A stretch of DNA of 32,280 nt from Bacillota bacterium (GTDB lineage: Bacteria > Bacillota > Sulfobacillia > Sulfobacillales > Sulfobacillaceae), in NCBI GenBank assembly GCA_021841025.1, contig JAKBWA010000030.1:1-32280 (forward strand), in the 5' to 3' direction. The position numbers and the translations under genes were made by a program. Numbering within the stretch: the first letter of the stretch is position 1; each line of letters begins with the position of its first letter. This document shows, in pieces, positions 4,481-32,158 of the stretch. The notes below the pieces were generated by a model, which did no database searches, was not told where the DNA came from, and worked only from the letters and a program-made list of their open reading frames with translations.

Positions 4481-4559
4481 TAACATCAATTATAGGGGGT
4501 TGCCTTTTCCCCCGGAACATGCCATTTTCAGTATTCGTGCAAGAAGAGGCGAGAATAAC

Positions 4560-5432
4560 GTGGCTCAAGACACTCTTAAATCCCATCCTTATTATGGCCG
4601 TACAGTGACTTTGGCCACAAAACATGGTAAAGAAACAGTTCTGGGTCCTCCGCTGAAAGCCGCTGTTGGCTTGATGATGGATGTACCCGAAGATCTTGAC
4701 ACCGATCGGTTGGGAACGTTTACGGGTGAAGTACCCCGGATTGGCAGTGCCAGGGCAACAGCACTCAAAAAAGCCAGGTGGGGAATGGCTATCACGGGGC
4801 GTCTTTTAGGGTTGGCTTCCGAAGGCAGTTTCGGGCCTGATCCTGAGTTGTTGTTTGTGCCAACATCCCACGAATTGTTAGCCTTCGTGGATGATGGTTG
4901 GGGTATCGAAGTCATTGAACAACTCATTGACCCAAATACCAATTATTCTCATCACGCTGGAAAAAGCCTCGACGACTTAGAGGACTTTCTGATCCAGGCT
5001 AAATTTCCGTCACATGGACTGATTGTCCGGCCCAACTCCGGATTAATGCCTGATCTCTTGTTCAAAGGCATTACGGATACCGAGGCGCTTCGTCGTACAC
5101 TTAAGACGTGCGCCTCAGCGTCCGAAGACGGGATGGCCCATGTCGAAACCGATATGCGGGCCTTTATGAACCCCACTAGGCGTAAGGTCCTCGGAAAAGT
5201 GGCACACAACTTGGGACGTCGGCTAAGGACATTATGCCCCCAGTGCAAAGCCCCGGGGTGGGGGATGGTTGATGTGATTAAAGGCCTTCCCTGTGAATGG
5301 TGCGGAGCAGAAACCTTGTTGACCCATAAGGAAGTTTATGGATGTCCCGCATGCGATTATGTGGAGAATCATCCGCGCCGAGATGGTCTGTCAAACGCTC
5401 CGGCATCCAATTGTCCCTACTGCAATCCCTAA
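4560..5432 (+). CDS. DUF6671-family protein with double zinc-ribbon tail
   Basis: I place the start at GTG 4560 (AGAGGCGAG about 7 bases upstream); the in-frame ATG at 4452 lies inside the promoter. The product is 290 residues. The body carries the conserved pattern of the DUF6671 family: LATKHGKE, GLASEGSFGPDPE, LLAFVDDG and TNYSHH. The tail has four CxxC pairs at residues 226/229, 245/248, 262/265 and 285/288, enough for two zinc ribbons. No catalytic activity is established for the family. The next gene on the same strand encodes a beta-carbonic-anhydrase-like protein 94 bp downstream, so the two may form one transcription unit. Regulation is suggested by inverted repeats at the promoter. 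Confidence 0.72.
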   Translation: MAQDTLKSHPYYGRTVTLATKHGKETVLGPPLKAAVGLMMDVPEDLDTDRLGTFTGEVPRIGSARATALKKARWGMAITGRLLGLASEGSFGPDPELLFVPTSHELLAFVDDGWGIEVIEQLIDPNTNYSHHAGKSLDDLEDFLIQAKFPSHGLIVRPNSGLMPDLLFKGITDTEALRRTLKTCASASEDGMAHVETDMRAFMNPTRRKVLGKVAHNLGRRLRTLCPQCKAPGWGMVDVIKGLPCEWCGAETLLTHKEVYGCPACDYVENHPRRDGLSNAPASNCPYCNP

Positions 5433-13869: not shown

Positions 13870-15183
13870 TTACAAAATATTAGCCCGATCCGCTACCCGC
13901 CTTATGGCCTTCTCTGCTTGTCCAATGACCCGCTCCTCATCAAGTGTTAACAGCCGGTCGTCTTGATAGAGTACCCGGCCTGCAACCATGGTCATGGAGA
14001 CGTCGTCACTTCTAGCCTGGTATACGATTTGACTGTATGGATCGCTATACACCATCGGTTGATGGTGGACCCCCTTTTGGCTGACCATAATCAGGTCCGC
14101 CTCTTTTCCCACCTCAATGCTACCGATCCGGTCGTCTAGTCCAAGGATTTTGGCCCCACCAAAGGTCGCCTGAGTCAAGGTCGTTCGCGCGAGCATGGAC
14201 TTTGCGCCAAACAACGGTTTTTGCAGTAAAGCGGCTAAGCGCATTTCTTCAAATCCATCCAAGCGGTTGTTACATGGTGCCCCATCCGCGCTGATTCCAA
14301 AGCTGATCCCCTGTTCTTGCCAGGTGGATATCGGAGCTACCCCCGATGCCAGTTTCAGATTGGACGAAGGACAGTGAACCAACCCCACCTGATAGTCTCG
14401 GACGATCGTCAACTCGTCCTTCGTCAGCCACACACCGTGGGCGGCCATCAAACGACCCCGAGTTAGCCCCATCGCATGAAGATGATGCATGGGCAACAAG
14501 CCTTTATGCGCCAATATTTCTTGAACCTCGCGCTGACTTTCCGCCACATGGGTATGGACGATAAGGTGACGTCGTCCAGCTTCCTCTGCCACCAAACGCC
14601 ACAAATCATCGGTCACCGACAGGGCAAATCGGGGGGCCAATCCATACTGAATGCGGCCTCTGTCAAATCCGTGCCAAGCTGCTGCTAAATCTAAACTTTC
14701 TTTTAGAGCCGACTCCGTTGGCTCGTATAGAAGCGGATGAGGCTCATCCATTAAGCATTTACCTGCGATGGCACGTATTCCACTCTGGGCCAACGCGTGA
14801 AAAGCGCCCTCCGTATGGGACACTGTCTCCATGTCCAAAATGGTGGTCGTGCCCGACCGCAGAAGCTCAGCGATGCCCAGTTGGGCCGAAACGTGTACCG
14901 AATCGAAATCATGGGCCGCTTCAAGCGGCCAGATCCTCGTCTTGAGCCAGTCAAGCAAGTCCAAATCGTCGCCCATGCCCCGAAATAGGGTTTGGCAAAG
15001 GTGAACATGGGGTTGAACTAATCCTGGCAACACATATTGATTCTGGGCCTGAATGACGACATCGGCCGTCTTTTCCCACGGCCCGATATGGACAATATAG
15101 GACTCGTCAATCCACACATCGGCTTGAACCACGCGGTAGGCCGGATCCATAGTAATAACCGTTCCCCCGGTAATTTGAATCAT
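13870..15183 (-). CDS. Amidohydrolase, AtzA/TrzN/guanine-deaminase-type aminohydrolase
   Basis: 437 residues. I choose ATG 15183 because AAGGTGG lies 7 bases upstream; two earlier in-frame ATGs fit worse. It is a metal-dependent amidohydrolase of the deaminase branch: PHVHL (His59, His61), HTHVAES (His212, Glu215), AAHGVWL (His249) and SADGAPCNN (Asp300). This set occurs in chlorohydrolases, S-adenosylhomocysteine deaminases, 8-oxoguanine deaminase and related enzymes that deaminate or dechlorinate N-heterocycles. Being last in an operon with a hydroxylase and a ring-opening hydrolase, it likely deaminates the substrate or an intermediate, for example an aminopyrimidine. The exact substrate is inference. 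Confidence 0.85.
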   Translation of the reverse strand: MIQITGGTVITMDPAYRVVQADVWIDESYIVHIGPWEKTADVVIQAQNQYVLPGLVQPHVHLCQTLFRGMGDDLDLLDWLKTRIWPLEAAHDFDSVHVSAQLGIAELLRSGTTTILDMETVSHTEGAFHALAQSGIRAIAGKCLMDEPHPLLYEPTESALKESLDLAAAWHGFDRGRIQYGLAPRFALSVTDDLWRLVAEEAGRRHLIVHTHVAESQREVQEILAHKGLLPMHHLHAMGLTRGRLMAAHGVWLTKDELTIVRDYQVGLVHCPSSNLKLASGVAPISTWQEQGISFGISADGAPCNNRLDGFEEMRLAALLQKPLFGAKSMLARTTLTQATFGGAKILGLDDRIGSIEVGKEADLIMVSQKGVHHQPMVYSDPYSQIVYQARSDDVSMTMVAGRVLYQDDRLLTLDEERVIGQAEKAIRRVADRANIL

Positions 15184-15261
15184 GACCATCCCACCTTTGG
15201 TTCCCATTGCCCTCAGCTATCCTGTACAGGGTAGCTTCATGATCCTAAAACTTGCATTAGC

Positions 15262-16464
15262 CTAAAAGATCGCTTTGTCAGATGGCCTGAAGTGTCCTTC
15301 ATCCCAATCGGCAATCCAGTCTAGCAAACTTTCATCGAGCCCCCGATTAGCTAAAATGGACACCCCCATCGGCAGCCCTTGCCACTGGGACAGTGGCAGA
15401 CTCACCTGAACCGCCCCACTGAGTCCAGCCAAAGCCGTCATGCGCAGTACCCGGTCTCGAAAAGCATTTAAGAACGGCACTGGCGTATTGCAAAGAGGGG
15501 CAATGCCTGGAGCAGTTGGCATAATCACTACCGTATCATCGCGCAAAATATCGTCGAAAAATTGTAACCAACTGTCCACCCGACCACGCCAATAATCACG
15601 ATCGGAGGACGAGATGGTTCCGGTCCACAAAAACCGTTCTTGAACCCCTGGCCCAAAGCGGGGCTGAACATCCGTAATCCATGTTCCAAAATTTTGCCAA
15701 ATCTCGTAACCCTGCAAAATACGAAAGGCTTGCATCCACTGATCGAGTCCGTCGGGCGCTATTTCCATCTGCCGGGTCAGGGGAAAGGCCGATGCTAAAG
15801 AATGAATCGCCCCGACCAAGGGCTCTTTGACCGCGTCATCGACCAAGTCCAACATATCGGTCGCAATTATGGCACAGCGCAAGCGGCCTGGTTTGGAAGA
15901 ACCTTGAAGCAGGACACCCCCGATGGTTTTGAGAAGAGATGGAGAGCGTGTAAACCAACCGACCGTATCAAAACTTTGGGCCAGCGGGATGACTCCGGTA
16001 AGGTTGGTGCGACCATGACTCGGGCGAATGCCATAAATCCCGCAATAGCTGGAAGGAATGCGGATCGATCCGCCCGTATCGGTGCCAATGGCGAAATCAA
16101 CCAGTCCTCCGGCCACGGACACCGCAGATCCGCTGGAGGATCCGCCTGGAATGCGGTCCGGCGCCACCGGATTAATGGGTGTGCCATAATGCACATTTTG
16201 GCCATTGAGGCCATACATCAACTCATCGGTATGGGTTTTTCCGGTCAACGTCGCGCCCGCCCTTCGCAGTGCTTCGATAACGTGAGCCGTTTCACTCGCT
16301 GGCGTGTGGGTTGCCAACCAATCCGGATTACCCCCGCTAGTCACTTGCCCTCGCACTGCAAAGGCCTCTTTGGCCGCGAATTTTAGGCCGGCAAGCGGGC
16401 CACCGGATACTGCCGGAAGCACCAAGGCTGGATCATAAAATGCTTGAAGTGTGTCGTCGACCAT
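15262..16464 (-). CDS. Amidase signature family enzyme (AtzE/ureidomalonase-like role)
   Basis: 400 residues, ATG 16464, three bases after the stop of the preceding FAH-fold gene; the ribosome-binding site lies inside that gene's last codons. The Ser-cisSer-Lys triad is visible: Lys32 (FAAKEAF), the glycine-serine loop PGGSSSGSA (Ser109-113), and nucleophile Ser133 in GTDTGGSIRIP. The family hydrolyses amides. In barbiturate breakdown an amidase-type ureidomalonase gives malonate and urea, and in cyanurate breakdown AtzE- and AtzF-type amidases act on carboxybiuret and allophanate. Position next to a ring-opening amidohydrolase supports such a role but does not decide between them. At 400 residues it lacks a C-terminal extension. 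Confidence 0.85.
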   Translation of the reverse strand: MVDDTLQAFYDPALVLPAVSGGPLAGLKFAAKEAFAVRGQVTSGGNPDWLATHTPASETAHVIEALRRAGATLTGKTHTDELMYGLNGQNVHYGTPINPVAPDRIPGGSSSGSAVSVAGGLVDFAIGTDTGGSIRIPSSYCGIYGIRPSHGRTNLTGVIPLAQSFDTVGWFTRSPSLLKTIGGVLLQGSSKPGRLRCAIIATDMLDLVDDAVKEPLVGAIHSLASAFPLTRQMEIAPDGLDQWMQAFRILQGYEIWQNFGTWITDVQPRFGPGVQERFLWTGTISSSDRDYWRGRVDSWLQFFDDILRDDTVVIMPTAPGIAPLCNTPVPFLNAFRDRVLRMTALAGLSGAVQVSLPLSQWQGLPMGVSILANRGLDESLLDWIADWDEGHFRPSDKAIF

Positions 16465-16467
16465 GTT

Positions 16468-17337
16468 TCAACCCCCCTCATTCCTATTCCCCGCTTGCAC
16501 CACGTTGTGTAATTGTCCCAACCCGGTGCCTTGTATCACACAGTCATCCCCAATTTGCAAAAATCTTGGAGGATTGCGGGTAAAACCCACCCCCCCGGGG
16601 GTCCCCGTCAAAATCATGTCACCGGTTTCAAGCGGCACCACTGCCGACAAATCTTCAATCAGGACCGGTATGTCAAAAAGCAAGTCCTGGGTGTGACCCG
16701 TTTGCACCATCTCGCCATTGATCCGCGTGGTGAGACAAATACCGCCGCTCGGCCACTCGTCTGGTGTCAGCAACCAGGGTCCGCAGGCCCCCGTGCCGAT
16801 GAAGTTCTTGCCCAAAGTCCATTGTGGTCCCCGGAATTGATAATCTCGCACCGATGCGTCATTAAATAAGGTGATTCCCGATATCATTCCGGGGGCATCG
16901 TCACGACAGGTGCCATAGGTTGGCTGGCCTATGACCACGGCCACCTCGCCTTCCCAATCCAACTGGGGGGACTGTTCAGGCATCAAGAGGGGCTCCTCAT
17001 GCGCCACCAGGGTGTGCACGCCTCGTTCAAACCATACCGGATGCGAAGGTCGATCCAGCGGAGTCGTCTTGACGTGGAGCAAATAATTGAGACCGACTCC
17101 GAAAATGCGCCGAGGTCTTACCGGCGTCGCCCATTTGAGACTCTTGGCCGATCGCAGAGCATGGCGGGGTGCCTTTTGGAGGGCATCTTGGGCCGCATTC
17201 CACAGCGGGCTAAAGTAAAGGGCGCTCGCTCCGCCCGAGATATTAATCCCAACACGAGTCAAATCCACCAGGGTGTCCTCGCTTAGAAAGGCTGCTAAAT
17301 GCCGACCATGGTCCTCCCAAAACTCTACCAGGCGCAT
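16468..17337 (-). CDS. Fumarylacetoacetate hydrolase (FAH) family protein, operon paralogue 1
   Basis: 289 residues from ATG 17337 (MRLVEFWEDHG), with GGAGG 7 bases upstream. A longer frame starting at 17424 would run deep into the upstream gene and lacks a site. The start overlaps the ring-opening amidohydrolase end by 13 bases. Family motifs: GVGLNYLLHV, the metal-binding LDWEGEVAVVIG (ExE), FNDASVRDYQ (Asp) and LTGTPGGVGFTR near the end. FAH-fold enzymes cleave or decarboxylate beta-keto acids or hydrolyse C-C bonds in a Mg/Mn-dependent way. Its step in this operon is unknown; acting on a malonate-like or ureido acid product is a guess. Confidence 0.85.
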   Translation of the reverse strand: MRLVEFWEDHGRHLAAFLSEDTLVDLTRVGINISGGASALYFSPLWNAAQDALQKAPRHALRSAKSLKWATPVRPRRIFGVGLNYLLHVKTTPLDRPSHPVWFERGVHTLVAHEEPLLMPEQSPQLDWEGEVAVVIGQPTYGTCRDDAPGMISGITLFNDASVRDYQFRGPQWTLGKNFIGTGACGPWLLTPDEWPSGGICLTTRINGEMVQTGHTQDLLFDIPVLIEDLSAVVPLETGDMILTGTPGGVGFTRNPPRFLQIGDDCVIQGTGLGQLHNVVQAGNRNEGG

Positions 17338-18407
17338 GATCGGTCCTCCACAACCCGCGCAATGGCGGCCACCGGGCCTCCGCCTAAGGGTCCATGGTGC
17401 TCGGCTCGGGTTGACACATAACAAGCGGGAAGGCCCGTTGCGGCCGCAAGCACCGAACCGACTACACAGCGAGCGTATCGCATGTCTTGCACGTCATCGT
17501 CGGTCAACATGGTATGACGATGTCCCCGCACGAAGCCCAAAGGATTGGCTTCCGCCTTGGCAAATACCGCCATCAAGCGTTCAGCCCTATGTGACATCAA
17601 AGGCACTTGCGAGCCTAAACCCAGGCTTTGCAAAAGACGTCGTACGGTTTCAAGATCGATGGGATCGGCCATCACCTCGTGTTGCATAATAAGGTCTCCC
17701 TGCCAATAGGGAGAATTGCCGAAGAGCGTAATCTCTGAGCGCCTCAAGCCGGGTTTGGCCGATGTGTTGGCGACCCCCGAGTAGAGGGAGAAATCATGGC
17801 CAATGGCTTGATCGTTCACGGCCTCCTCCGCCACCTCTCCTATGGCCACCGCTACCCCTAGGGCCGAGGCTGCACGAGAATACACCATGTTATTGCGCAT
17901 CGCGTCCGCTTCTGGCAAAATGGCCCCTTTGATTTGCACCATGTGCACGTCAGACGGCAAAATCTTTGCTTCTTGCATCAATGTTTTTACCACCCGAGCG
18001 GTTTCCTCCACCATGGCTCTTCGTCCAACTTCTTCGGCATCAAACGGACGGGTATAGCCCACGGTCACCGCCAACCGGGGCGGTCCCACTGGGGCCCGAG
18101 ATATCTGTCCCGTACGCCATATGACGACATAGTGGGGCGTTACCACCCCTTCCGTTCCTCCCGAAAACGAGAAAACGATACGGTCTTCCACTTCGTGGGA
18201 CGAGAGGCCCAAAGGGCCACAAAGAACATCTGAAAATGCCCGTACAGCCAGTTCGCGCGAAAAGTCATTGCGTCCGCCATTGCCTTCGGTTTTTCCGATA
18301 ATGGCACAGATATCGTGGGCACGAAAGGTTCCCTTTGCCAGACCAGACACCACCCCCTCCACGTCCGATGGTCCCTTGGCGTCAAAACGTTGGATATACG
18401 TTTGCAC
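17325..18407 (-). CDS. Ring-opening amidohydrolase (barbiturase / cyanuric acid hydrolase family)
   Basis: 360 residues, the usual family length. The start is GTG 18407, directly after the preceding gene's stop, with AAGGTG 9 bases upstream. The threefold-repeat family shows its markers: IIGKTEGNGGRNDF, FSFSGGTEGVVTPHYV, MVQIKGAI and, near the end, STRAEHHGPLGGGPVAA. These Ser-Lys hydrolases open cyanuric acid or barbituric acid rings. The xanthine-dehydrogenase-type genes upstream favour barbiturase, since a Mo-hydroxylase can turn uracil into barbiturate, but cyanurate cannot be excluded. It is translationally coupled on both sides. Confidence 0.9.
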   Translation of the reverse strand: MQTYIQRFDAKGPSDVEGVVSGLAKGTFRAHDICAIIGKTEGNGGRNDFSRELAVRAFSDVLCGPLGLSSHEVEDRIVFSFSGGTEGVVTPHYVVIWRTGQISRAPVGPPRLAVTVGYTRPFDAEEVGRRAMVEETARVVKTLMQEAKILPSDVHMVQIKGAILPEADAMRNNMVYSRAASALGVAVAIGEVAEEAVNDQAIGHDFSLYSGVANTSAKPGLRRSEITLFGNSPYWQGDLIMQHEVMADPIDLETVRRLLQSLGLGSQVPLMSHRAERLMAVFAKAEANPLGFVRGHRHTMLTDDDVQDMRYARCVVGSVLAAATGLPACYVSTRAEHHGPLGGGPVAAIARVVEDRSCAW

Positions 18408-18971
18408 CTACATCAACACCTTCAGTTTTTTTCCGGTGCACTTGAGAATGTCGACCTTGAATACATCGCCGTGAGCCATTTCGCTGGCACTGGATTGACT
18501 GGCCAAGGCCGCCACCACTTCTTCAGAATTTATGGTAAAAATGGTCACAGGGTTGGTCACCGCCATCGGAAAATCGTGCCACACCCGCTGAAAGAGCATG
18601 ACCCCATGACCTGGCTCAAAGCGAAAGGCTTCGACCTCTGATAGGTCGGGCACGGTGGAGTTAGGCTCCGGCTTGCCTAACACCATCACGTACGGCTGGT
18701 TCCCCATCCCAATAAATACTTGGGTCAGGATACTATGATACTCTAGCCAATCTACTTCCGACGACCGCTGCGATATGCGGGCGGTACGAATGACCGGCCG
18801 GCCATGACAGACAAAGTCGAGATTGTCCCCTTCTTCTACGCTGCCTTGATAAAAGGGAATGGTTAACCCGGGCCGATAGACTTGATTGCCTAACATCACC
18901 CCGTAAGGCATAAGACGCTCCACCGTTGCCTCCACAACCGGCACTTCAATGTAAGAAAGCTGCGTCGTCAC
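18408..18971 (-). CDS. Ureidoglycolate lyase (AllA)-like protein
   Basis: 187 residues, GTG 18971 with TAGGAGG 7 bases upstream. The middle part fits the ureidoglycolate lyase family: WLEYHSILTQVFIGMG corresponds to the family's LERH..SQ-F-P pattern, PYVMVLGKP follows, and FEPGHGVMLFQRVWHDFP corresponds to GqGV..x-G-WH. AllA releases urea from ureidoglycolate. Here the next gene opens a ureido-ring, so a lyase or hydrolase acting on an analogous ureido acid is plausible. The N-terminal 45 residues are less typical. The stop is immediately followed by the GTG of the ring-opening enzyme. Family call by motif reading; substrate unknown. Confidence 0.65.
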   Translation of the reverse strand: MTTQLSYIEVPVVEATVERLMPYGVMLGNQVYRPGLTIPFYQGSVEEGDNLDFVCHGRPVIRTARISQRSSEVDWLEYHSILTQVFIGMGNQPYVMVLGKPEPNSTVPDLSEVEAFRFEPGHGVMLFQRVWHDFPMAVTNPVTIFTINSEEVVAALASQSSASEMAHGDVFKVDILKCTGKKLKVLM

Positions 18972-19026
18972 CGTTTATCCTCCTACCTCAAATTTCTCTC
19001 GTCTTTCCTTATCTTGCCTTTTCTTC

Positions 19027-21201
19027 CTAATCTTGTTGTTTGATAAGTTCGCAAGTGGCCCACGACTTTTGGGACTGGGCCATCTGCTGCCACACCTTTT
19101 GGGCCGTGATAGGCAGGTCCCGGACGCGTACCCCGACGGCATCATAAATGGCGTTGGCAATCGCCGGGGCCACCGGCGCCACCGCCACCTCCCCAGCCGA
19201 TTTGGCCCCCATCGGTCCATCAGGATCGGGCGTATCGGTGAGGATAACCGTAATGGGGGGCATTTCCATGGCCGACAGATAGGCGTAATCTCGAAGACTT
19301 TGTGTGAGAACATGGCCCTCATCACTGACATGGACTTCCTCACACAACGCATAGCCTAACCCCTGGGCCAAAGCGCCCTCGATTTGTCCCTGAACCGCTA
19401 TCGGATTGATGGGATGCCCCACATCCACCCCGGCCACCAGCCGTTGGACCGTGACTTGGCCGATGTCTGAGTCCACATGGACGTGAGCGACCAAAACGGC
19501 AACGGGTGCGGGTGACTGCTCCGGTGCGGCGACCCCTAGACCTACAACTGGTCGTCGATGCGGTCCATAGAAACTGGCCTCTGCCAATTCCTCTATCGTA
19601 TACCCGCCCCATGGGCCCTGTGATTTCGAACGCCATGGTAAGATGTCAACCAAATCCTGCAATTGCCGCTTGACCTGTTGAGCCGCCTTCTGGGCAGCCG
19701 ATCCGGTCACGAACGTGGTTGACGACGCGTAGGTTCCATAATCAAATGCCTCGAGATCGGTATCCCCGGGCACGATGCGAATGCCACGCGGCGATATGCC
19801 CACGGCGTCGGCCACGATTGAGCGCAGTACTTCTCGTGCGCCCTGGCCCATGTCAACCGCCCCCGTCGTCACCCATAGCATCCCATCTTCTTGTAGCACT
19901 ACACGGACCATGGCCAGTTCCGCTTGCGGCACCCCGCTAGCCTGCATGCTAAGAGCCAATCCTAGACCTTCATTTAGACCGCGAGGTGCGGACCATTCGG
20001 CCGCATCCAGACATTTTTGAATTAAATCCTGAATGGGGTCCCCACGAAACACCCGTCTACGGTCGTTGATCGGATCGAGCACATCGAGGGGGTCCCCTTC
20101 CTGCATTAAAGAGCCTATGCGCAGGGCTGCCGGATCCATCCCCATGCGACGCGCCACTTCATCCCAGTGGGTTTCTACGGCCATCGCTCCTTGCGGGCCT
20201 CCGTAACCCCGAAATGCTCCCGCTACCGGCCCCACCGCGTAGCGTACCTGGCCGTCAAATTCATAACGAGGGCATCGATAAAACGGCAATGTCTTCAGCG
20301 CCATGTTATGGGCCACGCTCGACCCATGACCACCGTAGGGACCCGTAATCACATCGACTTCGAGATGCATCGCGGAGAGGTTCTGCCCATTCCATAGGCT
20401 TGCGACCCGAAGGGTCGCTGAATGACGAGTGCGGCCCAATAAAAACTCTTGTCGGCGAGATAATTGCATCTTCACCACTCGGCCCGTCAACCGAGCCAAC
20501 AAGGCAACCCAAGGTTCGACGATGACCTCTTGCTTACTACCAAAACCGCCGCCCACGTCGGTCGCAACCACCCGAATTTGGGAGGCTGGGCACTCAAGCG
20601 CCCGGGCCACAATGCGGCGAACATGGTATGGTACCTGGGTGGTCGTCCAAAGCACCAAACGGCCACCCGGTTCGATCATGGCCATGCTGGCATGGGGCTC
20701 TAGTTGCAGGTGGCTCTGCCGCTGAACCGTCACCATGGTGCCGTCTCCTGCTATGGGCCCCATGGATTCTCCGATATGAGTCGACCACCGGGCCAACACA
20801 TTATCGGGGCACGACGCGTGCAGAGGGCCGTCAAGCCCATGGTATTCCACTATCGCCCGATCCAAACAACGCCTTAAGTCATCCTGCGTTTGGGCCGCAA
20901 TCAAGGCCACCGGCTCTCCCATATACCGAACCACCCGATTGATAATCGCCATATCATAGGGAGATGGCTCTTTATGAGGCTGACCAGCAGTGGTAAATCG
21001 AGTAGCCGGAACCTCGGTGGCCGTGACCACCGCGTGGATTCCGGGCAACCCGCGCAGTTCCTCCAGGTTTGTCACATGAGGCACGGCGGGTACCCGGTGT
21101 GCCTCGAGCACACCGGCTACCAATCCCGGGGTACGATCGATCCAATCTACCGCATAGCGGGCTTGAGCACTTAAACTCCAACGCCGTTCCACACGTTCCA
21201 T
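19027..21201 (-). CDS. Xanthine dehydrogenase-type molybdopterin-binding large subunit
   Basis: 724 residues. ATG 21201 follows the FAD-subunit stop by two bases, and GGAGGAGG lies in that subunit's last codons. Moco-binding motifs are clear: ATDVGGGFGSK, AGAFRGYGGPQG, GAVDMGQGAREV, and GAKSAGEVAVAPVAPAI, whose Glu is the catalytic base. Enzymes of this family hydroxylate N-heterocycles with water as oxygen source, in a complex with 2Fe-2S and FAD subunits, both encoded directly upstream. With the ring-opening amidohydrolase downstream, oxidation of uracil/thymine or a similar ring to a barbiturate-like product is the best guess. No dedicated XdhC or cofactor-maturation gene is seen in the window. 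Confidence 0.93.
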   Translation of the reverse strand: MERVERRWSLSAQARYAVDWIDRTPGLVAGVLEAHRVPAVPHVTNLEELRGLPGIHAVVTATEVPATRFTTAGQPHKEPSPYDMAIINRVVRYMGEPVALIAAQTQDDLRRCLDRAIVEYHGLDGPLHASCPDNVLARWSTHIGESMGPIAGDGTMVTVQRQSHLQLEPHASMAMIEPGGRLVLWTTTQVPYHVRRIVARALECPASQIRVVATDVGGGFGSKQEVIVEPWVALLARLTGRVVKMQLSRRQEFLLGRTRHSATLRVASLWNGQNLSAMHLEVDVITGPYGGHGSSVAHNMALKTLPFYRCPRYEFDGQVRYAVGPVAGAFRGYGGPQGAMAVETHWDEVARRMGMDPAALRIGSLMQEGDPLDVLDPINDRRRVFRGDPIQDLIQKCLDAAEWSAPRGLNEGLGLALSMQASGVPQAELAMVRVVLQEDGMLWVTTGAVDMGQGAREVLRSIVADAVGISPRGIRIVPGDTDLEAFDYGTYASSTTFVTGSAAQKAAQQVKRQLQDLVDILPWRSKSQGPWGGYTIEELAEASFYGPHRRPVVGLGVAAPEQSPAPVAVLVAHVHVDSDIGQVTVQRLVAGVDVGHPINPIAVQGQIEGALAQGLGYALCEEVHVSDEGHVLTQSLRDYAYLSAMEMPPITVILTDTPDPDGPMGAKSAGEVAVAPVAPAIANAIYDAVGVRVRDLPITAQKVWQQMAQSQKSWATCELIKQQD

Positions 21202-21203
21202 TT

Positions 21204-22028
21204 TTATGCCTCCTCCAACGAGGATTCAAAAAACCCAGATTGCGTCTTGAGCAAACGTTCCAGGACAACGCCAGCTACGTGTGCGCGATATGCCGCCGAC
21301 GCTCGAAAATCGTCGATAGGCACCCACCCCATTTGCTGAAAGGCTTGCCACTGCGCCCTGATTTTCGTGGCCAAATCCAGAGGTTTGGAGCAGACAGACA
21401 GATGGCAGGGGATCTCAAACACGCCAGATATCACCATTTGGACGTGTATTTGACCATTCGCTACAGACTGTTGCCAAGAGACTGCCCCGTTGACAATACT
21501 GCCGTTAAGACGCGCTTTGGTGATTTTTTCAAAGACCATTCGTCGGCGCTTTGTCGAGCGCGGAATTCGAAGCGCCAACCACACCCGGTTCGCACCGTAT
21601 AACGGTCCTTCATACTCCAGTAACATCCAGCGAGGTTGCGGATCTTCACGAGACATCACCAAAACCTCGGTTCCAAGAAGACGCATCATGGGATACAAAT
21701 CGGACGTCGGCTCCCGATTGGCCAGTCTCCCTGCGACCGTGGCTAAGTTGCGCAAAACAGGCGTACCCAATCTGTTCAAACCATCCGCCAGTCCCGGGAC
21801 GTGGTTTTTGGCCCATGCCTGCAAGTGGGTTAAGGTCACCACCGGTCCCAATTGCCAGCGGGAGGGATACTCAACAATTTGGTTCGCATCGGGAAATCTG
21901 CGGATGTCAACGACTTTCTCAACCGGATTCTCGTCACCCAATAACCCCGTACCGCCACCAATTACACGATACCCTTGAACAAGAGCCGATTGCAGCTCAT
22001 CGAGCGTAGATGCCTCAATCCACTGCAA
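21204..22028 (-). CDS. Xanthine dehydrogenase-type FAD-binding medium subunit
   Basis: 274 residues. The start is taken as TTG 22028 (AGGGATGAAGG just upstream), overlapping the small subunit by 14 bases; no ATG or GTG is available nearby. FAD motifs of the CO-dehydrogenase-flavoprotein fold are present: IGGGTGLLGDE, then TPVLRNLATVAGRLANREP, and the C-terminal SAAYRAHVAGVVLERLL. It passes electrons from the Mo and Fe-S subunits to an acceptor. Position between the other two subunits and tight overlaps indicate a fixed-stoichiometry operon. Confidence 0.88.
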   Translation of the reverse strand: MQWIEASTLDELQSALVQGYRVIGGGTGLLGDENPVEKVVDIRRFPDANQIVEYPSRWQLGPVVTLTHLQAWAKNHVPGLADGLNRLGTPVLRNLATVAGRLANREPTSDLYPMMRLLGTEVLVMSREDPQPRWMLLEYEGPLYGANRVWLALRIPRSTKRRRMVFEKITKARLNGSIVNGAVSWQQSVANGQIHVQMVISGVFEIPCHLSVCSKPLDLATKIRAQWQAFQQMGWVPIDDFRASAAYRAHVAGVVLERLLKTQSGFFESSLEEA

Positions 22029-22506
22029 CCTTCATCCCTGCTTTCCTTTGCAACACTTTCATGGCAGCGCGCACCGATGCATAATGTCCTGTACACCGGC
22101 AGAGGTGGCTGACAAGCGATTCCCGCACGACGTTTTCATCGACTGGGTCCTGAGATAACACGTGGTGTAACGACAACAGTATGCCGGGCGTACAATATCC
22201 ACACTGCGCAGCCCCTTCTTCGACAAAAGCGTCTTGTAGATCTCGCATAAGGGGATCGGTCTCCAGCCCTTCGTAGGTCGTAATAGCCGCGCCGTCTAGA
22301 CGTACAGTTAGCATGAGACAACTGGGCACCAGACCTACCCCCTCTTGGCTCACCACACAGGCACCGCAATGCCCGGTACCGCATCCGTAACGCGCACCAT
22401 AAAGATCCATCTTTGTCCTGAGGGTGTCTAGCAATCGTTCATCGGCAGGTACAGTGACGGTTTTTAACTTCCCATTGACGGCCAATTGAACACGGTGTGT
22501 GTGCAT
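22015..22506 (-). CDS. Xanthine dehydrogenase-type 2Fe-2S small subunit
   Basis: 163 residues, ATG 22506 with AAAGGAGGTGG upstream. Two [2Fe-2S] clusters: the plant-ferredoxin type with Cys42, Cys47 and Cys50 (CGTGHCGAC) and Cys63, and the helical domain with Cys102/Cys105 (QCGYCTPG) and Cys136/Cys138 (LCRCTGHY). All eight ligands are present. It is the first intact gene of the operon. Upstream lies a broken permease gene whose promoter (23745-23773) is probably the operon's original start. No better promoter was found in the 157 bases directly upstream. Confidence 0.93.
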   Translation of the reverse strand: MHTHRVQLAVNGKLKTVTVPADERLLDTLRTKMDLYGARYGCGTGHCGACVVSQEGVGLVPSCLMLTVRLDGAAITTYEGLETDPLMRDLQDAFVEEGAAQCGYCTPGILLSLHHVLSQDPVDENVVRESLVSHLCRCTGHYASVRAAMKVLQRKAGMKVAVD

Positions 22507-25140: not shown

Positions 25141-26502
25141 CTAGATTGATTCTAATGCCCGACCTTCCGTCTTTGGCCCCCAAATTCCGCCCACTACAAC
25201 CAGGTAAATAAACATCAAGCCGAGCATCCATGCCACGGGTGTAAATCCTAAGGCTTTCGTCATGGTTGGGAGAAATAAGCTCCACAAACCCAGCCCCACT
25301 CGCATAATGGACCACAGGAAACCTTGTGCTGTATTACGAATTTCGGTTGGAAACAATTCAACCGACCAGATCCGAAGCAGTGGCCACAGACCAATCCCCT
25401 GGCCAATGCCAAACAGCAGTACGTTCAGTATAGCCACCGTGGGATTGGAAATAGGGAAAAAGACCAACAACAAGAAAGCTGCAGAACATAGCAGGGCACT
25501 AATGGCAAAAAGCAGGCGACGATTAATCCGATCATTAAACGGTATAAACACTACAAGCAGTCCTACGATGGCTGACGCGAACCACAAAATTTCCAAAGAA
25601 TCCGAGGATGCCGTGGAATGTGCACCCAAGGTGTGGAAAATATATGGCAAAAAGAAGCCATATGTTCCTGCGGGAATCCCCCAAAGCAGATAGAGGGGAA
25701 TAATGAACAGGAGCCGTTTTCCAAATCGCCGACTAAAAAGCTCGCCAAAACCACCTTTGGCCAATGTGGGATTAGAGGGCTGGGATTCAGGCCTTGGCGC
25801 AGAACTAGTATTTTGAGTCAGCTGAGCAACAGCCTCATCGACTTTCTCGGGATGTCCTTGGTTATACAACCAACGCGGTGATTCTAATAATGAACGCCGC
25901 AGAAACCATGCAACCACTGCCACGATAAACAAGCTGCCAAACACTAGACGTACGCCGGCAATCCCTAATGGAGCAAACAATAAAGACAATAATAAAATGA
26001 CAATCGGACCAATGTACCAGAAGACATTGGTCAAGGCCATCAACTTGCCGCGAGACCTACGAGGTGCAAATTCGGCAATTAAAGACCATGACGTCGGAAC
26101 ATCCGCTCCGACAGCCAAACCCATCACCATATATCCGACGATAAGCATTGATGCGTTGACGGCGGCAATGACCACTAACACCCCAAGGGCATAAATTAGA
26201 AGGTCTACGCTGTAGATAAACTTTCTCCCAAACCGATCACCCAGTCTTCCAGCAATCAAGGCGCCCACAGCCGTGGAAATCCCATTCGCGCTAAAAGCTG
26301 CAATCAAACCTATTAATGACGGGCTTAAATGATATAAGGCCACCCACATGGCTAAGGAAGCACCTCCCGCAACTATGGACCCTGCGTCCAGGTAATCACC
26401 CAGCGCCGCGATTAAGGTCCATCGCCAATGAATACTCTTAAGTTGAGCATCATCAAGTGCGACAAACTCACTCCCACTGCTAGAATTTGCTGATTGTTTC
26501 AT
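25141..26502 (-). CDS. MFS transporter, sugar-porter type (probable L-rhamnose uptake)
   Basis: 453 residues from ATG 26502 (AAAGGGGA upstream); a start at 26535 lacks a site. Twelve hydrophobic segments; the loop 2-3 motif is GRLGDRFGRKFIY, and the sugar-porter mark after helix 6 reads LLESPRWLYNQG. The N-terminal stretch HWRWTLIAALGDYLDAGSIV is typical of proton-coupled MFS sugar/organic acid carriers. It has its own promoter overlapped by an 18-bp palindrome and its own terminator, next to the rhamnose catabolic genes. Import of L-rhamnose or a related deoxy-sugar or aldonate is inferred from context. Confidence 0.82.
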   Translation of the reverse strand: MKQSANSSSGSEFVALDDAQLKSIHWRWTLIAALGDYLDAGSIVAGGASLAMWVALYHLSPSLIGLIAAFSANGISTAVGALIAGRLGDRFGRKFIYSVDLLIYALGVLVVIAAVNASMLIVGYMVMGLAVGADVPTSWSLIAEFAPRRSRGKLMALTNVFWYIGPIVILLLSLLFAPLGIAGVRLVFGSLFIVAVVAWFLRRSLLESPRWLYNQGHPEKVDEAVAQLTQNTSSAPRPESQPSNPTLAKGGFGELFSRRFGKRLLFIIPLYLLWGIPAGTYGFFLPYIFHTLGAHSTASSDSLEILWFASAIVGLLVVFIPFNDRINRRLLFAISALLCSAAFLLLVFFPISNPTVAILNVLLFGIGQGIGLWPLLRIWSVELFPTEIRNTAQGFLWSIMRVGLGLWSLFLPTMTKALGFTPVAWMLGLMFIYLVVVGGIWGPKTEGRALESI

Positions 26503-26600
26503 AATGTTTCCCCTTTCTGTTATTTGCTGCGACAAGATCGCCGCTAGCTGTTAAAATGTGCGATTCCGCCATATTCTTCGCACCGTGATCTCTCTCAATG

Positions 26601-26946: not shown

Positions 26947-27261
26947 CTAAGAATTCGCTTCGAAATGAAACACCTCTGGAAGAGTTTCTGTGGTTTGTCC
27001 CTCACCAATCGGAACCAAGATGTCTGACATATAATCCTGCCATTTGGCATTGATTTCCGCCTCGTTAATGATCTGCAGCGTCTCTTCGGGATTATCCATC
27101 TCCATGTACGCAAACAACGTCGTGCCATCCAGAAAGATACTATATGTTTTCACCCCAGCTTTCTGAAAAACTTGGAGCAGTTCAGGATAGACGGATCGGT
27201 GGCGACGCACATATTCGTCTTCGGTTCCGGATTTCATCCTCAATTTGAATGCATAACGCAT
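26947..27261 (-). CDS. rhaM: L-rhamnose mutarotase (RhaM/RhaU family)
   Basis: 104 residues from ATG 27261, exactly the usual RhaM length. AGGGAG lies 3 bases upstream, a little close; ATG 27273 is the alternative. Family pattern: MRYAFKLRMKSGTEDEYVRRH with Tyr17 and His21 matching the active-site pair, then YSIFLDGTTLFAYMEMD, WQDYMSDI and EVFHFEA. The enzyme interconverts alpha and beta anomers of L-rhamnose, supplying the form used by the dehydrogenase. An open frame continues 156 bases upstream but has no family similarity. It is last in the rhamnose operon. Confidence 0.88.
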   Translation of the reverse strand: MRYAFKLRMKSGTEDEYVRRHRSVYPELLQVFQKAGVKTYSIFLDGTTLFAYMEMDNPEETLQIINEAEINAKWQDYMSDILVPIGEGQTTETLPEVFHFEANS

Positions 27262-27321
27262 GATCTCCCTCATTTCTTTTCCCCGTATTCGGGATTCGGA
27301 TAGGTACACGAAGACTCCTTG

Positions 27322-27335
27322 CCACAAATTTGTGG
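27322..27335. promoter_or_regulatory. 14-bp perfect palindrome in the rhmD-rhaM gap
   Basis: CCACAAATTTGTGG lies in the 168-base gap between the dehydratase and mutarotase genes, where the other operon genes are tightly packed. It could be a binding site or an RNA processing hairpin; no T-run follows. Confidence 0.3.
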
Positions 27336-27429
27336 GGGACATCCTCGTCGTGCAGGCCAAATAGAACCGGACGGATCCCCAGAACAGAGGGTCCAGAATG
27401 GTGACGTCTAGTGGCATAGCGTTCTGTCA

Positions 27430-28623
27430 TCATGACAAAGACTCTCCTTGATGCCAGTTAACACGCCGGAGCAAATCCCGGTTCAATTCGACTCCAAATC
27501 CTGGGCGGTCACTTAAGGTTAACGTTCCGTGAACGGGTATCGGTTCTTTTTCCAACAGCGGGGAAAACATCGGCACCACCTCCGATGCATCAGGATGCAT
27601 CATGAGAAACTCGGAAAAGGGGCTGTTCGTGCGACTGATCACAAAGTGATAGCTATAGACACTCGACCCGTGTGGAATGACCCAGGCTCCGTAGGCATCC
27701 GCCAAAGCCGAAATTTTCAACAGTTCCGTTAGTCCGCCACACCACGTGACATCGGGTTGAATAAAATCTGCGGCCCCGGCTTCCAACAGGCTTTTGAAAC
27801 CCCACCGCGTGGCTTCGTGCTCTCCCGTACTCACCAACATTTTTCCTTGCATCGCCTGCCGGAAAGCCTGGTAGGCCCAAATGTCATCAGGAGAAAAACA
27901 CTCTTCCATCCATTTCGGATGATACGGTGCCAACCGATTGGCCAATTCGATGGCATACGGAACGTCAAGGGCCATCCAGCAATCATACATCAACCAAAAA
28001 TCGTCTCCCACCCGCTCCCGCATACTCCGAAAGCGCCGCACATTTTCCCGCAGACCTTCTTCACCCGACGCGGGTCCAAAAGCCAGGGGCAATTTTCCAC
28101 CGATAAATCCCATCTGTTGAGCCAGGTCGGGGCGAGGACCCGTGGCATAAAATATCAAGCTTTCCCGAACCGCACCGCCAATCATGGCATACACCGGCTC
28201 TTCCCGAAGGCGCCCCAGGACATCCCAAAGAGCTAAATCGACGGCAGAAATGGCATTCAAGACCAATCCCTTGCGTCCATAGAAGAGGGTCGAGCGGTAC
28301 ATTTGATCCCAGATTTTTTCGATGTCCCATGGGGTTTGCCCTATCACAAATCGTGCCAAATGCTTTTCCACAATCCAGGCAGCCGGAGGTCCCCCTGTAC
28401 TCACACCAAAGCCAATCGTCCCATCTCGTGTCTCAATTTCTACCACTAAGGATCCTAAGACATTTATGCCCCAGGCAGTGCGTGTCGCACGGTAGGCCGG
28501 ATAGGCCGACATTGGCGTGGCAATTTCCCCGACAATCCAGTGCTCGGCAGCTTGCGCATGGTAATCGCCACCCCCTTGCGCTACGATATAGGCCCGCATT
28601 GCCACAATCTCATGCTTTTTCAT
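27430..28623 (-). CDS. rhmD: L-rhamnonate dehydratase (enolase superfamily)
   Basis: 397 residues, ATG 28623 with GGAGG 9 bases upstream, 16 bases after the SDR stop. It follows the RhmD sequence closely: N-terminal GGGDYHAQAAEHWI, WGINVLGSLVVEIE, FYATGPRPDLAQQMGFIGGK, SPFSEFLMM and PGFGVELNRD. Metal ligands Asp214 (MYDCWM), Glu240 (WMEEC) and Glu268 (STGEHE) and the catalytic His318 (VIPHGSS) with Asp291 (QPDV) are present. It dehydrates L-rhamnonate to 2-keto-3-deoxy-L-rhamnonate in the cytoplasm. This gene identifies the operon's sugar as L-rhamnose, or possibly a stereochemically related deoxy-sugar. Confidence 0.92.
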   Translation of the reverse strand: MKKHEIVAMRAYIVAQGGGDYHAQAAEHWIVGEIATPMSAYPAYRATRTAWGINVLGSLVVEIETRDGTIGFGVSTGGPPAAWIVEKHLARFVIGQTPWDIEKIWDQMYRSTLFYGRKGLVLNAISAVDLALWDVLGRLREEPVYAMIGGAVRESLIFYATGPRPDLAQQMGFIGGKLPLAFGPASGEEGLRENVRRFRSMRERVGDDFWLMYDCWMALDVPYAIELANRLAPYHPKWMEECFSPDDIWAYQAFRQAMQGKMLVSTGEHEATRWGFKSLLEAGAADFIQPDVTWCGGLTELLKISALADAYGAWVIPHGSSVYSYHFVISRTNSPFSEFLMMHPDASEVVPMFSPLLEKEPIPVHGTLTLSDRPGFGVELNRDLLRRVNWHQGESLS

Positions 28624-28639: not shown

Positions 28640-29401
28640 CTACTGCAAATTCACAAACAACCCGCCATCGACTAAAATATCGGCGCCAGTGATATAGGCG
28701 GCATCGTCAGAGGCCAAAAACGCGGCCACGCCAGCAATATCGGCGGGATCTCCGAGTCTTCCCAAGGGAATGCGATGGACATCCCGTGCCAGCACTTGTT
28801 CATCTTGGTAGTGGTCTCGATTGATATCGGTTAAAATGGACCCGGGAAGAATCGAATTGCAGGTAATGCCATAAGGGCCCAACACAATAGCTAACGATTG
28901 CATTAAGGACCGAATTCCTGCTTTGGTCGGGGTATAGGCCGTTTGAAGACTGCCGCCGACTAAGGCGGAAATAGAACTTAAGCTAATAATACGACCCCCA
29001 TGGCCATGATCGCGCATGATCCGCGATGCGGCCTGAGAGCACAAAAAAGCCCCCTTGAGATTGATCTGGTGCACCGAATCCCAAATAGCCTCAGTGAGAT
29101 CAAACCAGTTCACAAACGGACAAATTCCGGCATTGTTGACCAAGATGTCCACGGTACCAAACGCTTTCAGTGTCTGCTGAAACAACTCCTGCACAGCAGA
29201 TGCTTTGGACACATCGGCCGACACGGAGAATGCTTGACCCCCAGTGTCCACAATCTTTTCCACGACAGCATGGGCTGCCTCGGATTCGTCCGGATGATCT
29301 ATCACCACATGGGCCCCTTCAGCCGCTAATCGCAAGGCAATAGCCCGGCCAATGCCGCGTGAAGCTCCTGTCACCACCGCTACCTTTCCCATTAACGTCA
29401 C
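28640..29401 (-). CDS. L-rhamnose 1-dehydrogenase (short-chain dehydrogenase)
   Basis: 253 residues; GTG 29401 is preferred (AGGGAGGGG 6 bases upstream), with ATG 29392 as the alternative. Classical SDR: cofactor motif TGASRGIG (residues 11-18), NNAG (89-92), Ser143, and Tyr156-x3-Lys160 in AYTPTKAG. The stretch SSISALVGGSLQTAYTPTKA and the ending ILVDGGLFVNLQ are those of L-rhamnose 1-dehydrogenases of the non-phosphorylating pathway, rather than generic SDRs. It oxidises L-rhamnose to the lactone with NAD(P). Cofactor preference cannot be read securely. Co-transcribed with rhmD. Confidence 0.85.
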   Translation of the reverse strand: MTLMGKVAVVTGASRGIGRAIALRLAAEGAHVVIDHPDESEAAHAVVEKIVDTGGQAFSVSADVSKASAVQELFQQTLKAFGTVDILVNNAGICPFVNWFDLTEAIWDSVHQINLKGAFLCSQAASRIMRDHGHGGRIISLSSISALVGGSLQTAYTPTKAGIRSLMQSLAIVLGPYGITCNSILPGSILTDINRDHYQDEQVLARDVHRIPLGRLGDPADIAGVAAFLASDDAAYITGADILVDGGLFVNLQ

Positions 29402-29440: not shown

Positions 29441-30331
29441 TTAGGATTGCCACTCTCCTATGAGAGTGGTTAATTCTCCCAGACCTTCCACGCTGACCGA
29501 GATCTTCTCCCCGGACTTGAGCCACTGTCTTTGGGCAGGGGGCTGCCCCAATATGACGCCTTCTGGCGTTCCCGTAAAGATGACATCTCCCGGTTCTAGC
29601 GTGATGTAGCGGGAGATGTAACTAATGAGATATGCACAAGAAAAAATCATTTGCCGCGTATTGGAATGCTGGACTTCAATTCCATTGCGGCGCCCCACAA
29701 TTTCCAACTGATCAGGATGCTGAATCTCATCGACGGTCACCATATAGGGACCCATCGGGCCAAAACCATCCGCTGTCTTGCCCAATAACCACTGATTCGT
29801 CCGAAATTGCAAGTCGCGCGCCGACAAATCGTTTCCGTTGCAATAGCCCGCCACATACTCCAAAGCGGCCGATTCCGCCACATTTTTCGCCCGGCGTCCC
29901 ATAATCATCACCAGTTCGGCCTCATAATCCATCTCTCGTGCATCCGTAGGCGGATGCACTGCCATTCCTGGTCCTAAGACCGCATTGCCGTACTTGTTAA
30001 AGAATACCGGGTATTCAGGAATGTCCATCTGAGACTCTGTCACATGCGGGCGATAATTCAGGCCGACACAAAGAATCTTGCTCGGTTGAGGCACCGGTGC
30101 CAACGTCACATCTGGCACCCGCTCCGTCTTGATTCCCTGTTTCTGAGCCCAAATCCACCATGAGTGGACTAAATCCCGAGAATGTTCCAAATCGGCCAAA
30201 TAACGCATCATTGTCCACTCCTGATCCCCATGACCAAGAAGGGCCGCAACATCACTGACCCGAAGAGGCCCGTGATCCGTCATCCACCATAGCTGTTCAC
30301 GGCCATCTAACAACCCGCTGAGTAAACGCAA
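29441..30331 (-). CDS. 2,4-diketo-3-deoxy-L-rhamnonate hydrolase (FAH family)
   Basis: 296 residues. The start is TTG 30331 with GGGGGAG 6 bases upstream; the nearby ATG is out of frame, and the N-terminus MRLLSGLLDG fits the family. FAH motifs: CVGLNYRPHV, MDYEAELVMIMG (ExE metal site), GNDLSARDLQFR (Asp) and FTGTPEGVILGQ. In the diketo-hydrolase route it splits 2,4-diketo-3-deoxy-L-rhamnonate into pyruvate and L-lactate. The pathway context makes this more specific than a generic FAH call. It is not closely similar to the FAH protein at 16468-17337 outside the motifs. Confidence 0.85.
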   Translation of the reverse strand: MRLLSGLLDGREQLWWMTDHGPLRVSDVAALLGHGDQEWTMMRYLADLEHSRDLVHSWWIWAQKQGIKTERVPDVTLAPVPQPSKILCVGLNYRPHVTESQMDIPEYPVFFNKYGNAVLGPGMAVHPPTDAREMDYEAELVMIMGRRAKNVAESAALEYVAGYCNGNDLSARDLQFRTNQWLLGKTADGFGPMGPYMVTVDEIQHPDQLEIVGRRNGIEVQHSNTRQMIFSCAYLISYISRYITLEPGDVIFTGTPEGVILGQPPAQRQWLKSGEKISVSVEGLGELTTLIGEWQS

Positions 30332-30347: not shown

Positions 30348-31343
30348 TCATACAGTCAACACAATTTTCGCAAATCTCGCCTCGGGCGATGCTTGTTCGG
30401 CAAAGGCGGCATCTCCGTCTTCCAGAGGACGAATATCCAGCCAGTCCCGACTTTGTGGAAAGGCTTGACCGGCATTGACTAAATCTACCGCCCGTTGAAA
30501 TTCGCTATCCGTGTAACAAAAACTCCCGCGAATATCAATTTCGTCGCGCACCACCGCATTGCCTGCGAGTCCCGTAGGGTTTTCGTGCAAGCCAATCCAC
30601 ACCGCACAGCCACCGCGCCGCAGCACTTTGACACTGAGAGCCCGGGTATCGGAAAATCCCACTGCATCGATGACTCGATCGAGTCTCTGGCCCATCGCCT
30701 CATGATTTATCCGGTCAGGGGTCAGGGTATCGGTGGCCCCCCATTCCTGGGCCAATTCTAATCGATGCACATTGGTATCCACCGCCACGACACGGGACGC
30801 CCCGGCTCTACGCAGGATACGCATGACCATCAAGCCAATAATCCCCGCACCAATCACCATGGCCTCATCCCCGATCTCAACCTGGGCTAAACCCACCGCA
30901 CGCACTCCACAGGCATAAGGCTCCACAAGCGCACCATCCACGATGTCCCCGATGGGATAACACTGAGATGCGGGGACTGCCACCCACTCAGCAAAAGCGC
31001 CGGGAAAGTCAATGCCAATGATCCGGCGCGAAAGGCATCTTTGCCGATTTCCTTGCCGGCAATGGCGACATTGGCCACAACTGACCAAAGGGTTCGCCGT
31101 CACGACCTCCCCCACTGCGAGCTGGGTTACCCCCTCTCCCAATCGGGCGACCGTTCCTGAAAACTCATGCCCCATAATTAACGGCGGATGTCTGAGCTCA
31201 TTGTGACCCAAATATCCGGCAATCTCTGATCCACAAATGGCTGCCCCGCCCACCTGCAACAATACCCATCCCGGAACCAGTTCTGGTTCCCTGGCCTCCC
31301 TAATGGCCATGACGTTAGGCGCCGTCCATGTTAGGGTTTTCAC
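30348..31343 (-). CDS. MDR-family zinc dehydrogenase, probable 2-keto-3-deoxy-L-rhamnonate dehydrogenase
   Basis: 331 residues, GTG 31343 with AAGGAGG 8 bases upstream; it overlaps the upstream stop by four bases (GTGA). Zinc alcohol dehydrogenase architecture: catalytic-zinc Cys37 (AAICGSE) and His59-Glu60 (MGHEFSG), structural-zinc Cys89, Cys92, Cys95 and Cys103 ([15 protein letters not shown]), and the NAD motif VIGAGIIGL (residues 163-171). A 2-keto-3-deoxy-L-rhamnonate dehydrogenase of this superfamily is known from Sulfobacillus thermosulfidooxidans, and that activity is the missing step between the dehydratase and the diketo-acid hydrolase here. The role is by context and memory of that work. 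Confidence 0.85.
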
Positions 31344-32158
31344 GGTTTTTGCCTCCTTTGAGCCGATGATAGTGCGGCTGCGCCGATGTCCTGGCCTGGC
31401 GGAAACCGGGTCGCCGTATCCGGATCATAGGGGGAAACCAGTATTTCGGCCTCCCGCCTAAGCCTGTCATAGGCCCTGCGGCACTCCGCCATGCTTTCTT
31501 GTATCCCCAGGGGATGGTTGCGTTCCACGTTGGCGTAATAAAACATCACGTCGCTAAACCCCACAATCCCCCCTGCACTCTCAATGAACACGGCTAAAGA
31601 ACTGCGATGATGCGTCCCCATCCATGCCGTGCGTATCCCCGGCACAACCACCTCCTCATCATCCAGAAGGTGCACGCGCTGTTCAGTCCATGCCTCAAAA
31701 ATCAGATAGCGGAGCAAATGATCGGGGACGGCCATATGTCTTCGCGAATCATAATACCGGGGCGCCAGCAGATCCTCCCATCCCGTGCGCGAGATGGCAA
31801 TCGTTGCGCTGGGAAATCTGTCAATATTGCCTAGCGCATACGCTTGAAGCGGAGTCACTATTACCATGTCCACAGCATCGAAAGAAATTCCATGACGGGC
31901 TAACACCGCGTCGATCTGTTGGTCGGCTGTTACGGTCATGTGGGCTGGCTCTCCCAACTCATCGCGCCATACGGCATTCATTCGGTCCAAGTAATCTAAT
32001 GGCGGTCCGCAATTCACCAAGATTGTTTTTCCTTGTCCCCGGATAATCAGCATATAAATGTGCAACGACAACCACTGCTCAAAATGCGACATCCAAAAGA
32101 TTTCTGGCCCGGGAACCCTCCCCAGATCCGCCACCTGCTCGACCCATACCTGATACAT
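31340..32158 (-). CDS. Metallo-beta-lactamase-fold protein with degenerate metal site (lactonase position)
   Basis: 272 residues, ATG 32158 with GAGGTGATGTC upstream; first gene of the rhamnose operon. The fold resembles AHL-lactonase-type MBL proteins: [17 protein letters not shown] (residues 35-51), then [13 protein letters not shown] where the family has the T-H-x-H-x-D-H motif. All four ligands are replaced (Pro103, Gln105, Tyr107, Ala108). The later histidine (GTHHRSS, 183-184) and aspartate (GFSDVMF, 203) remain. In the pathway a lactonase should open L-rhamnonolactone, and no other lactonase gene is present in the window. Either the protein works without a normal metal site, has another role, or the lactone opens spontaneously or by an enzyme elsewhere. 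Confidence 0.72.

Follow-up and report, generated by a model that had tools for sequence, protein, structure and literature searches.

A metallo-beta-lactamase-fold protein without canonical di-zinc ligands in a rhamnose operon: a candidate L-rhamnono-lactonase

Introduction

How is the lactone intermediate of L-rhamnose degradation opened if the gene in the lactonase slot of the operon encodes a protein of the metallo-beta-lactamase (MBL) fold from which the canonical di-zinc ligands are missing? This question is raised by a gene at positions 31340..32158 on the minus strand of the window, the whole stretch of DNA analysed here, which is an entire contig (G000:C117) of 32,280 bases. The predicted product of 272 amino acids, termed X in the following, is a candidate L-rhamnono-lactonase. 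LRA2 and the COG3618 lactonases, which carry out the pathway step proposed for X, have the amidohydrolase fold. LRA2, the usual rhamnonolactonase, is named in the pertinent part of PMC5674754, and PMC6336799 has a COG3618 fuconolactonase among its references.

Several other genes of the window lie apart from this operon. A DUF6671 protein is encoded at 4452-5432 (plus strand), and two overlapping genes at 9050-13179 (plus strand) encode a Proton_antipo_M protein and DabA (PF10070, 874 bits), corresponding to a DAB-type inorganic carbon pump. The minus strand at 13870-22506 carries genes for an amidohydrolase, an amidase, an AtzD/TrzD ring-opening amidohydrolase and a molybdenum hydroxylase with its FAD subunit, a cluster looking like one for the degradation of an N-heterocycle, e.g., a barbiturate or cyanurate-like compound.

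The rhamnose operon and its linkage to X

The X gene starts with ATG, with the Shine-Dalgarno-like stretch GAGGTGAT a short way upstream, and its last four bases, GTGA, are shared with the next gene, which begins with GTG at 31343; the good start and overlap reported in a first-pass annotation of this DNA are therefore borne out. Its upstream neighbour is missing because the contig, and with it the window, ends 122 bases away. The next gene (30348..31343, minus strand, as are all operon genes of the window) encodes an MDR protein of the zinc-type alcohol dehydrogenase family, which by analogy would be a 2-keto-3-deoxy-L-rhamnonate 4-dehydrogenase; PMC5674754, drawing on Bae 2015, describes such an MDR-type KDRDH from Sulfobacillus thermosulfidooxidans. 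It is followed by genes for an LRA6-like FAH-family hydrolase (29441..30331; 2,4-didehydro-3-deoxy-L-rhamnonate hydrolase; PF01557; NF053535, 212 bits with a cut-off of 500), an LRA1-like L-rhamnose 1-dehydrogenase of the SDR type (28640..29401; NF053807, 345 bits with a cut-off of 400), the L-rhamnonate dehydratase LRA3 of the enolase superfamily (27430..28623; NF011968, 640 bits, above the cut-off of 393), a RhaM-like L-rhamnose mutarotase (26947..27417; PF05336, 81 bits, above its cut-off) and, by domain match, an MFS transporter of the sugar/acid type (25141..26535). The names LRA1 and FAH denote best matches, since both models score below their curated cut-offs. The operon of the window supplies the remaining steps of the diketo-hydrolase rhamnose pathway, in which the lactonase is the only step without a conventional gene.

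The homologue search covered 61 genomes, namely that of the window and 60 relatives. Of the 42 genomes in the order, 23 carry X, 24 have a strong match to LRA1 and 22 have both. All 22, the window included, have X on the strand of LRA1 and upstream of that gene, in agreement with the earlier placement of X in the lactonase slot among rhamnose genes. The co-occurrence across the 42 genomes has a Fisher p of 1e-8; the genomes are related and the events are not independent. LRA1 without X is found in two of the 24 genomes (G007:C65 and G037:C170), where the contigs end before X would come, and X without LRA1 in one of the 23 (G002), where X lies on a contig of 4,487 bases. Counted at an identity of at least 45% and within the stretch read, the neighbours in the 22 genomes (window included) comprise LRA3 in all 22, MDR in 21 and FAH in nine. 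A role of X as a stand-in for FAH is ruled out, as X is present both in the nine genomes with FAH and in the 13 in which FAH was not found in the stretch read. The two families of the order arrange these genes differently, yet X stays with LRA1 and LRA3 in both.

Additional genes accompany the operon in some relatives. In locus L022, an IclR-family regulator gene lies upstream of X, and CCG, LutB-like and LUD genes follow LRA3, fitting the L-lactate product of the pathway. In genome G029, a second enolase-superfamily dehydratase and a DHDPS-family aldolase are encoded between X and MDR (L043:2212-4277, plus strand), an insert which suggests an aldolase branch of the rhamnose pathway.

Fold of X

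X belongs to the AHL-lactonase branch of the MBL fold. The profile of X aligns with those of its canonical relatives in hhalign at a probability of 100 (E 6.7e-40), and its search against solved structures retrieves the lactonase 8x78 (E 4e-13) and AiiA (E 8.9e-7). An AlphaFold model built from a three-sequence alignment is of moderate confidence, with a mean pLDDT of 69.7 and a pTM of 0.78; its confidence is lowest at residues 16-28, 132-145 and 208-220, which include family-specific residues. In a Foldseek search with this model, the nearest solved folds are MBL lactonases, and VIA likewise places MBL lactonases nearest, with a Z of 19.9 over 235 residues (rmsd 3.5). The alpha-beta-beta-alpha fold spans nearly the full length of the predicted model. 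These results uphold the fold assigned in the first-pass annotation.

Family models describe X poorly. No Pfam model, PF04909 among them, matches it even at an E of 1, and the NCBIfam equivalogs of the AHL lactonases AiiA, AttM and YtnP score 28, 28 and 21 bits, all below the respective cut-offs of 375, 390 and 425. X is a real conserved family without a Pfam model or an NCBIfam model above cut-off, and the function proposed below is deduced from its gene context. While LRA2-type L-rhamnono-gamma-lactonases and COG3618 proteins act at the same pathway step as that proposed for X, their fold is unrelated, X having no PF04909 match and the MBL fold instead.

Metal-motif residues

The residues of X were compared in an alignment of 26 open proteins, composed of the protein of the window, 21 operon orthologues, an extra copy in genome G030 (L042) and the paralogues L026, L045 and L046. 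The homologue L036 was left out because of an internal stop; its motif likewise reads TPLQAYA. The canonical set consists of eight MBL relatives, seven of which belong to the same order and the eighth to the class. At the place of motif 2, X reads T102-P-L-Q-A-Y-A-L-G110, and the codons of T102 to A108 (31835..31855, minus strand) encode TPLQAYA in 26 of 26 members of the X alignment, whereas THLHxDH is found in eight of eight canonical proteins. Thus, all HxHxDH ligands are lost, as first noted from the window alone, and PxQxYA stands in their place in the whole family.

Two further losses lie beyond HxHxDH. The histidine of motif 5 is replaced by Tyr244 (codons of Y244-D-P246 at 31421..31429, minus strand; Tyr in 26/26 X, His in 8/8 canonical), and the aspartate of motif 1 by Asn49 (codon at 32012..32014, minus strand; Asn in 26/26, Asp in 8/8). 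Conversely, the motif-3 and motif-4 ligand positions are kept. His183, within H183-H-R-S-S187 (31598..31612, minus strand), and Asp203 (31550..31552, minus strand) are present in all 34 rows, while position 184 is His in the X rows and Thr in the canonical ones. The proposed anchors of a rebuilt site, His183, His184 and Asp203, are accordingly retained in all 26 X rows. Across the seven ligand positions, X has P, Q, Y, A, H, D and Y (26/26) as opposed to H, H, D, H, H, D and H in the canonical proteins (8/8), meaning that five of the seven metal ligands are replaced in addition to the motif-1 aspartate.

These eight positions are all among the 56 of 272 columns which are invariant in the X alignment, for which the hypergeometric P is 2e-6, neighbouring positions not being independent. 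Of the invariant residues, 19 are specific to X. Fixed differences between X (n=26) and the canonical proteins (n=8) are found in nine columns (49, 103, 105, 107, 108, 126, 184, 186 and 244), a number which is an upper bound because the canonical set is small and was picked from hits of X. Except for column 126, they lie on or next to the metal motifs. A misplaced motif is ruled out by three alignments and the PDB profile alignment; the profile alignments with the canonical relatives, AiiA and 8x78 set TPLQAYA on THLHxDH or its counterpart, and none of the alignments made sets it elsewhere. Homologues with the P-x-Q-x-Y-A variant next to rhamnose genes, which the first-pass annotation proposed to look for, occur in the 22 genomes with X and LRA1. 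None of these 22 retains HxHxDH in the same operon context, the finding which would have marked X as recently inactivated.

Descent, selection and taxonomic range

The aligned members come from two families of the order, and the identity of the 25 others to X of the window ranges from 42 to 79%. They form one clade (branch support 100/100) on a stem of 3.03 changes per column, a length to be read with caution as long branches meet there. The dN/dS (NG86) of X in six pairs is 0.06-0.15. X is under purifying selection, and the replacement of its motif is old and fixed. Recent decay is ruled out by the replacements common to 26 of 26 members and by dN/dS values below 0.16.

Among the samples searched, X is seen only in this bacterial order. 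In a sample of the phylum (398 genomes), the sole match to the X profile is the window's own gene, and of 154 genomes of the class, 25 match at E 1e-20, every one in this order. Two of these matches (L049 in G007 and L048 in G041) are canonical THLHYDH proteins, leaving 23 genomes with X. The viral contigs searched yielded no match. Plasmid records contain 20 matches, compared by identity, which is at most 29%. Of two whose surroundings were inspected, the one from Nonomuraea lies in an unannotated stretch, and the one from Acidiphilium is an MBL protein encoded between MFS and SDR genes. A profile search of genome contigs returned one locus, L021 from a Bacillota MAG, matching the contig of L026. 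This MAG and the MDR-type KDRDH of Sulfobacillus suggest that the genome of the window is close to that genus.

Other lactonases, paralogues and canonical relatives

Conventional lactonases were sought in the vicinity of the operon. SMP-30 lactonases (PF08450) have no match in the genome of the window and none on X-bearing contigs in the order; this candidate for a lactonase beside the operon was rejected, as its matches sit on contigs other than those of X. PF04909 proteins are present in 42 of 42 genomes of the order, so that an unlinked gene may provide a lactonase. In the genome of the window, the one full-length PF04909 protein is encoded on another contig, beside an open reading frame not recognised as a sugar gene. 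On contigs with X, the PF04909 genes among the matches listed lie about 11 kb (G040), 13.6 kb (G038) and 21.5 kb (G006) from X, and weaker matches may lie closer.

The paralogues L026, L045 and L046 lie in clusters with a class-V aminotransferase, an SDR and an enolase-superfamily dehydratase in the same stretch. In L026 (9226-10847, minus strand), X and a paralogue which is 48% identical to the protein of the window stand in tandem, both with TPLQAYA. The X-paralogue clusters with class-V aminotransferases and SDRs also encode proteins of 841 and 898 amino acids (L026:12996-15521 and L045:5926-8622, both minus strand), which have no Pfam or NCBIfam match.

Among the MBL relatives, an SDR gene, identified by similarity to LRA1, adjoins the MBL gene or lies at most two genes off in L047, L049, L051, L053 and L054, whose motifs were read, as well as in L052 and L055, and within about 1.2 kb in L048, while none is so placed in L050 and L056. 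The canonical relative L049 lies in a run of SDR, dehydratase, MBL and MFS genes. The proximity of MBL and SDR genes seems to be a local habit, consistent with lactone opening.

Proposed role and mechanism

From sequence and context, X is somewhat more probably than otherwise an L-rhamnono-lactonase whose active site has been rebuilt and would be metal-free or hold one tyrosine-bound metal. In the proposed pathway, LRA1 would oxidise L-rhamnose to L-rhamnono-lactone, which X would open to L-rhamnonate, both the catalysis and the substrate being putative. LRA3 would then dehydrate L-rhamnonate, the MDR enzyme would oxidise the 2-keto-3-deoxy product, and the FAH hydrolase would split the product of MDR into pyruvate and L-lactate. 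In relatives such as L022, LutABC-like proteins would oxidise the latter.

Within the site, His183 may act together with Asp203 as a general base on water. Tyr107 and Tyr244, which occupy the places of the Asp and His ligands of the second zinc in AiiA, could hold the carbonyl and the oxyanion, while Gln105, His184, Arg185, Ser186 and other invariant residues may hold the sugar hydroxyls. The fixed Tyr107 and Tyr244 favour such a rebuilt site. By residue count, we take the catalytic Tyr194 of AiiA to align with Phe206 of X, and the mechanism of AiiA is therefore not simply transferable. Alternatively, one metal might be held by Tyr107, Tyr244, Asp203 and His183. The ferric ion of transferrin is bound by two tyrosines, one aspartate and one histidine, and because these four residues of X make up a transferrin-type ligand set, an MBL-fold lactonase with a mononuclear tyrosinate-iron(III) site is conceivable, if something of a long shot; the alternative to it is a fully metal-free MBL-fold hydrolase.

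Discussion

The AHL-lactonase branch (AiiA, AiiB, GcL and 8x78) resembles X in a fold of nearly full length, in the order of the motifs and in the positions of His183 and Asp203, whereas X has PxQxYA for HxHxDH, Tyr for the motif-5 His and Asn for the motif-1 Asp. That these differences stem from sequencing error or from the recent inactivation of an ordinary zinc lactonase is practically out of the question. The internal stop of L036, from genome G002, does mark a broken or mis-assembled homologue, but the same replacements recur in all 26 open homologues from two families, with low dN/dS in all six pairs. A weightier doubt concerns catalysis itself, which may have been lost together with the metals, since the conventional chemistry of the fold uses them. 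Sugar lactones also undergo spontaneous hydrolysis, so that the lactonase slot need not be filled. X could be a pseudoenzyme with a non-catalytic binding or scaffold function, e.g., a partner of LRA1 or MDR which channels the lactone, or a ligand-binding modulator, and its constant company with LRA1 and LRA3 despite the changed gene order suits such a partner. This reading is unlikely, though it carries appreciable weight. Known pseudo-MBLs have as a rule lost motif 2 and show no metal, as in the excerpts of PMC4819959, where CPSF100, in which no metal was seen, and INTS9 are inactive partners of active MBLs, and of PMC11144196, where the N-terminal domain of ELAC2, an inactive partner of an active MBL, is without the motif-2 ligands. 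X shares with them the MBL fold and the loss of metal ligands, but it stands alone as a single-domain protein, is encoded in a metabolic operon and has fixed replacements, and no active MBL partner was recognised among the annotated open reading frames of the stretches scanned. Moreover, the replacements show no drift, being P, Q, Y, A, H, D, Y and N in 26/26, and the operon would be left without a lactonase gene if X were a pseudoenzyme.

X might also catalyse another reaction on the same intermediates, such as the interconversion of 1,4- and 1,5-lactones or another isomerisation, with the opening being spontaneous or due to an unlinked enzyme. The heavily remodelled site and the long stem fit changed chemistry, and the family is not tied to one sugar because its paralogues adjoin class-V aminotransferase genes. 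This is nevertheless rather improbable, given that the window already has a RhaM mutarotase gene, that no other pathway step there is without a gene, and that the distribution of FAH among the 22 genomes does not make X its substitute. Less probable still is a sugar-sensing regulator or co-regulator, a role also raised in the first-pass annotation; X is the first operon gene in many genomes and is conserved with the operon, but an IclR-family regulator gene already lies upstream of X in L022, which makes this role less likely, and Pfam and NCBIfam find no DNA-binding domain in a protein nearly wholly covered by the MBL fold.

For the favoured lactonase role, UlaG offers a parallel by description: the pertinent text of PMC3219644 presents a Mn-dependent MBL-fold L-ascorbate-6-phosphate lactonase, i.e., an MBL fold acting on a sugar-like lactone within a catabolic regulon, which is metal-dependent while X lacks those ligands. 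In the open-licence literature, a scope outside which lie Bae 2015 and Reinhardt 2019, which may name the gene, neither a metal-less MBL lactonase nor a Sulfobacillus rhamnonolactonase was found.

A metal site is the hallmark of the MBL superfamily, and the X clade has exchanged five of the seven ligands for one fixed set yet stays locked in its operon. Either catalysis has outlasted the di-metal site here, which would be a rare case, or X is a pseudoenzyme of metabolism that strong selection maintains. X would also be a candidate for the lactonase with which this order degrades rhamnose.
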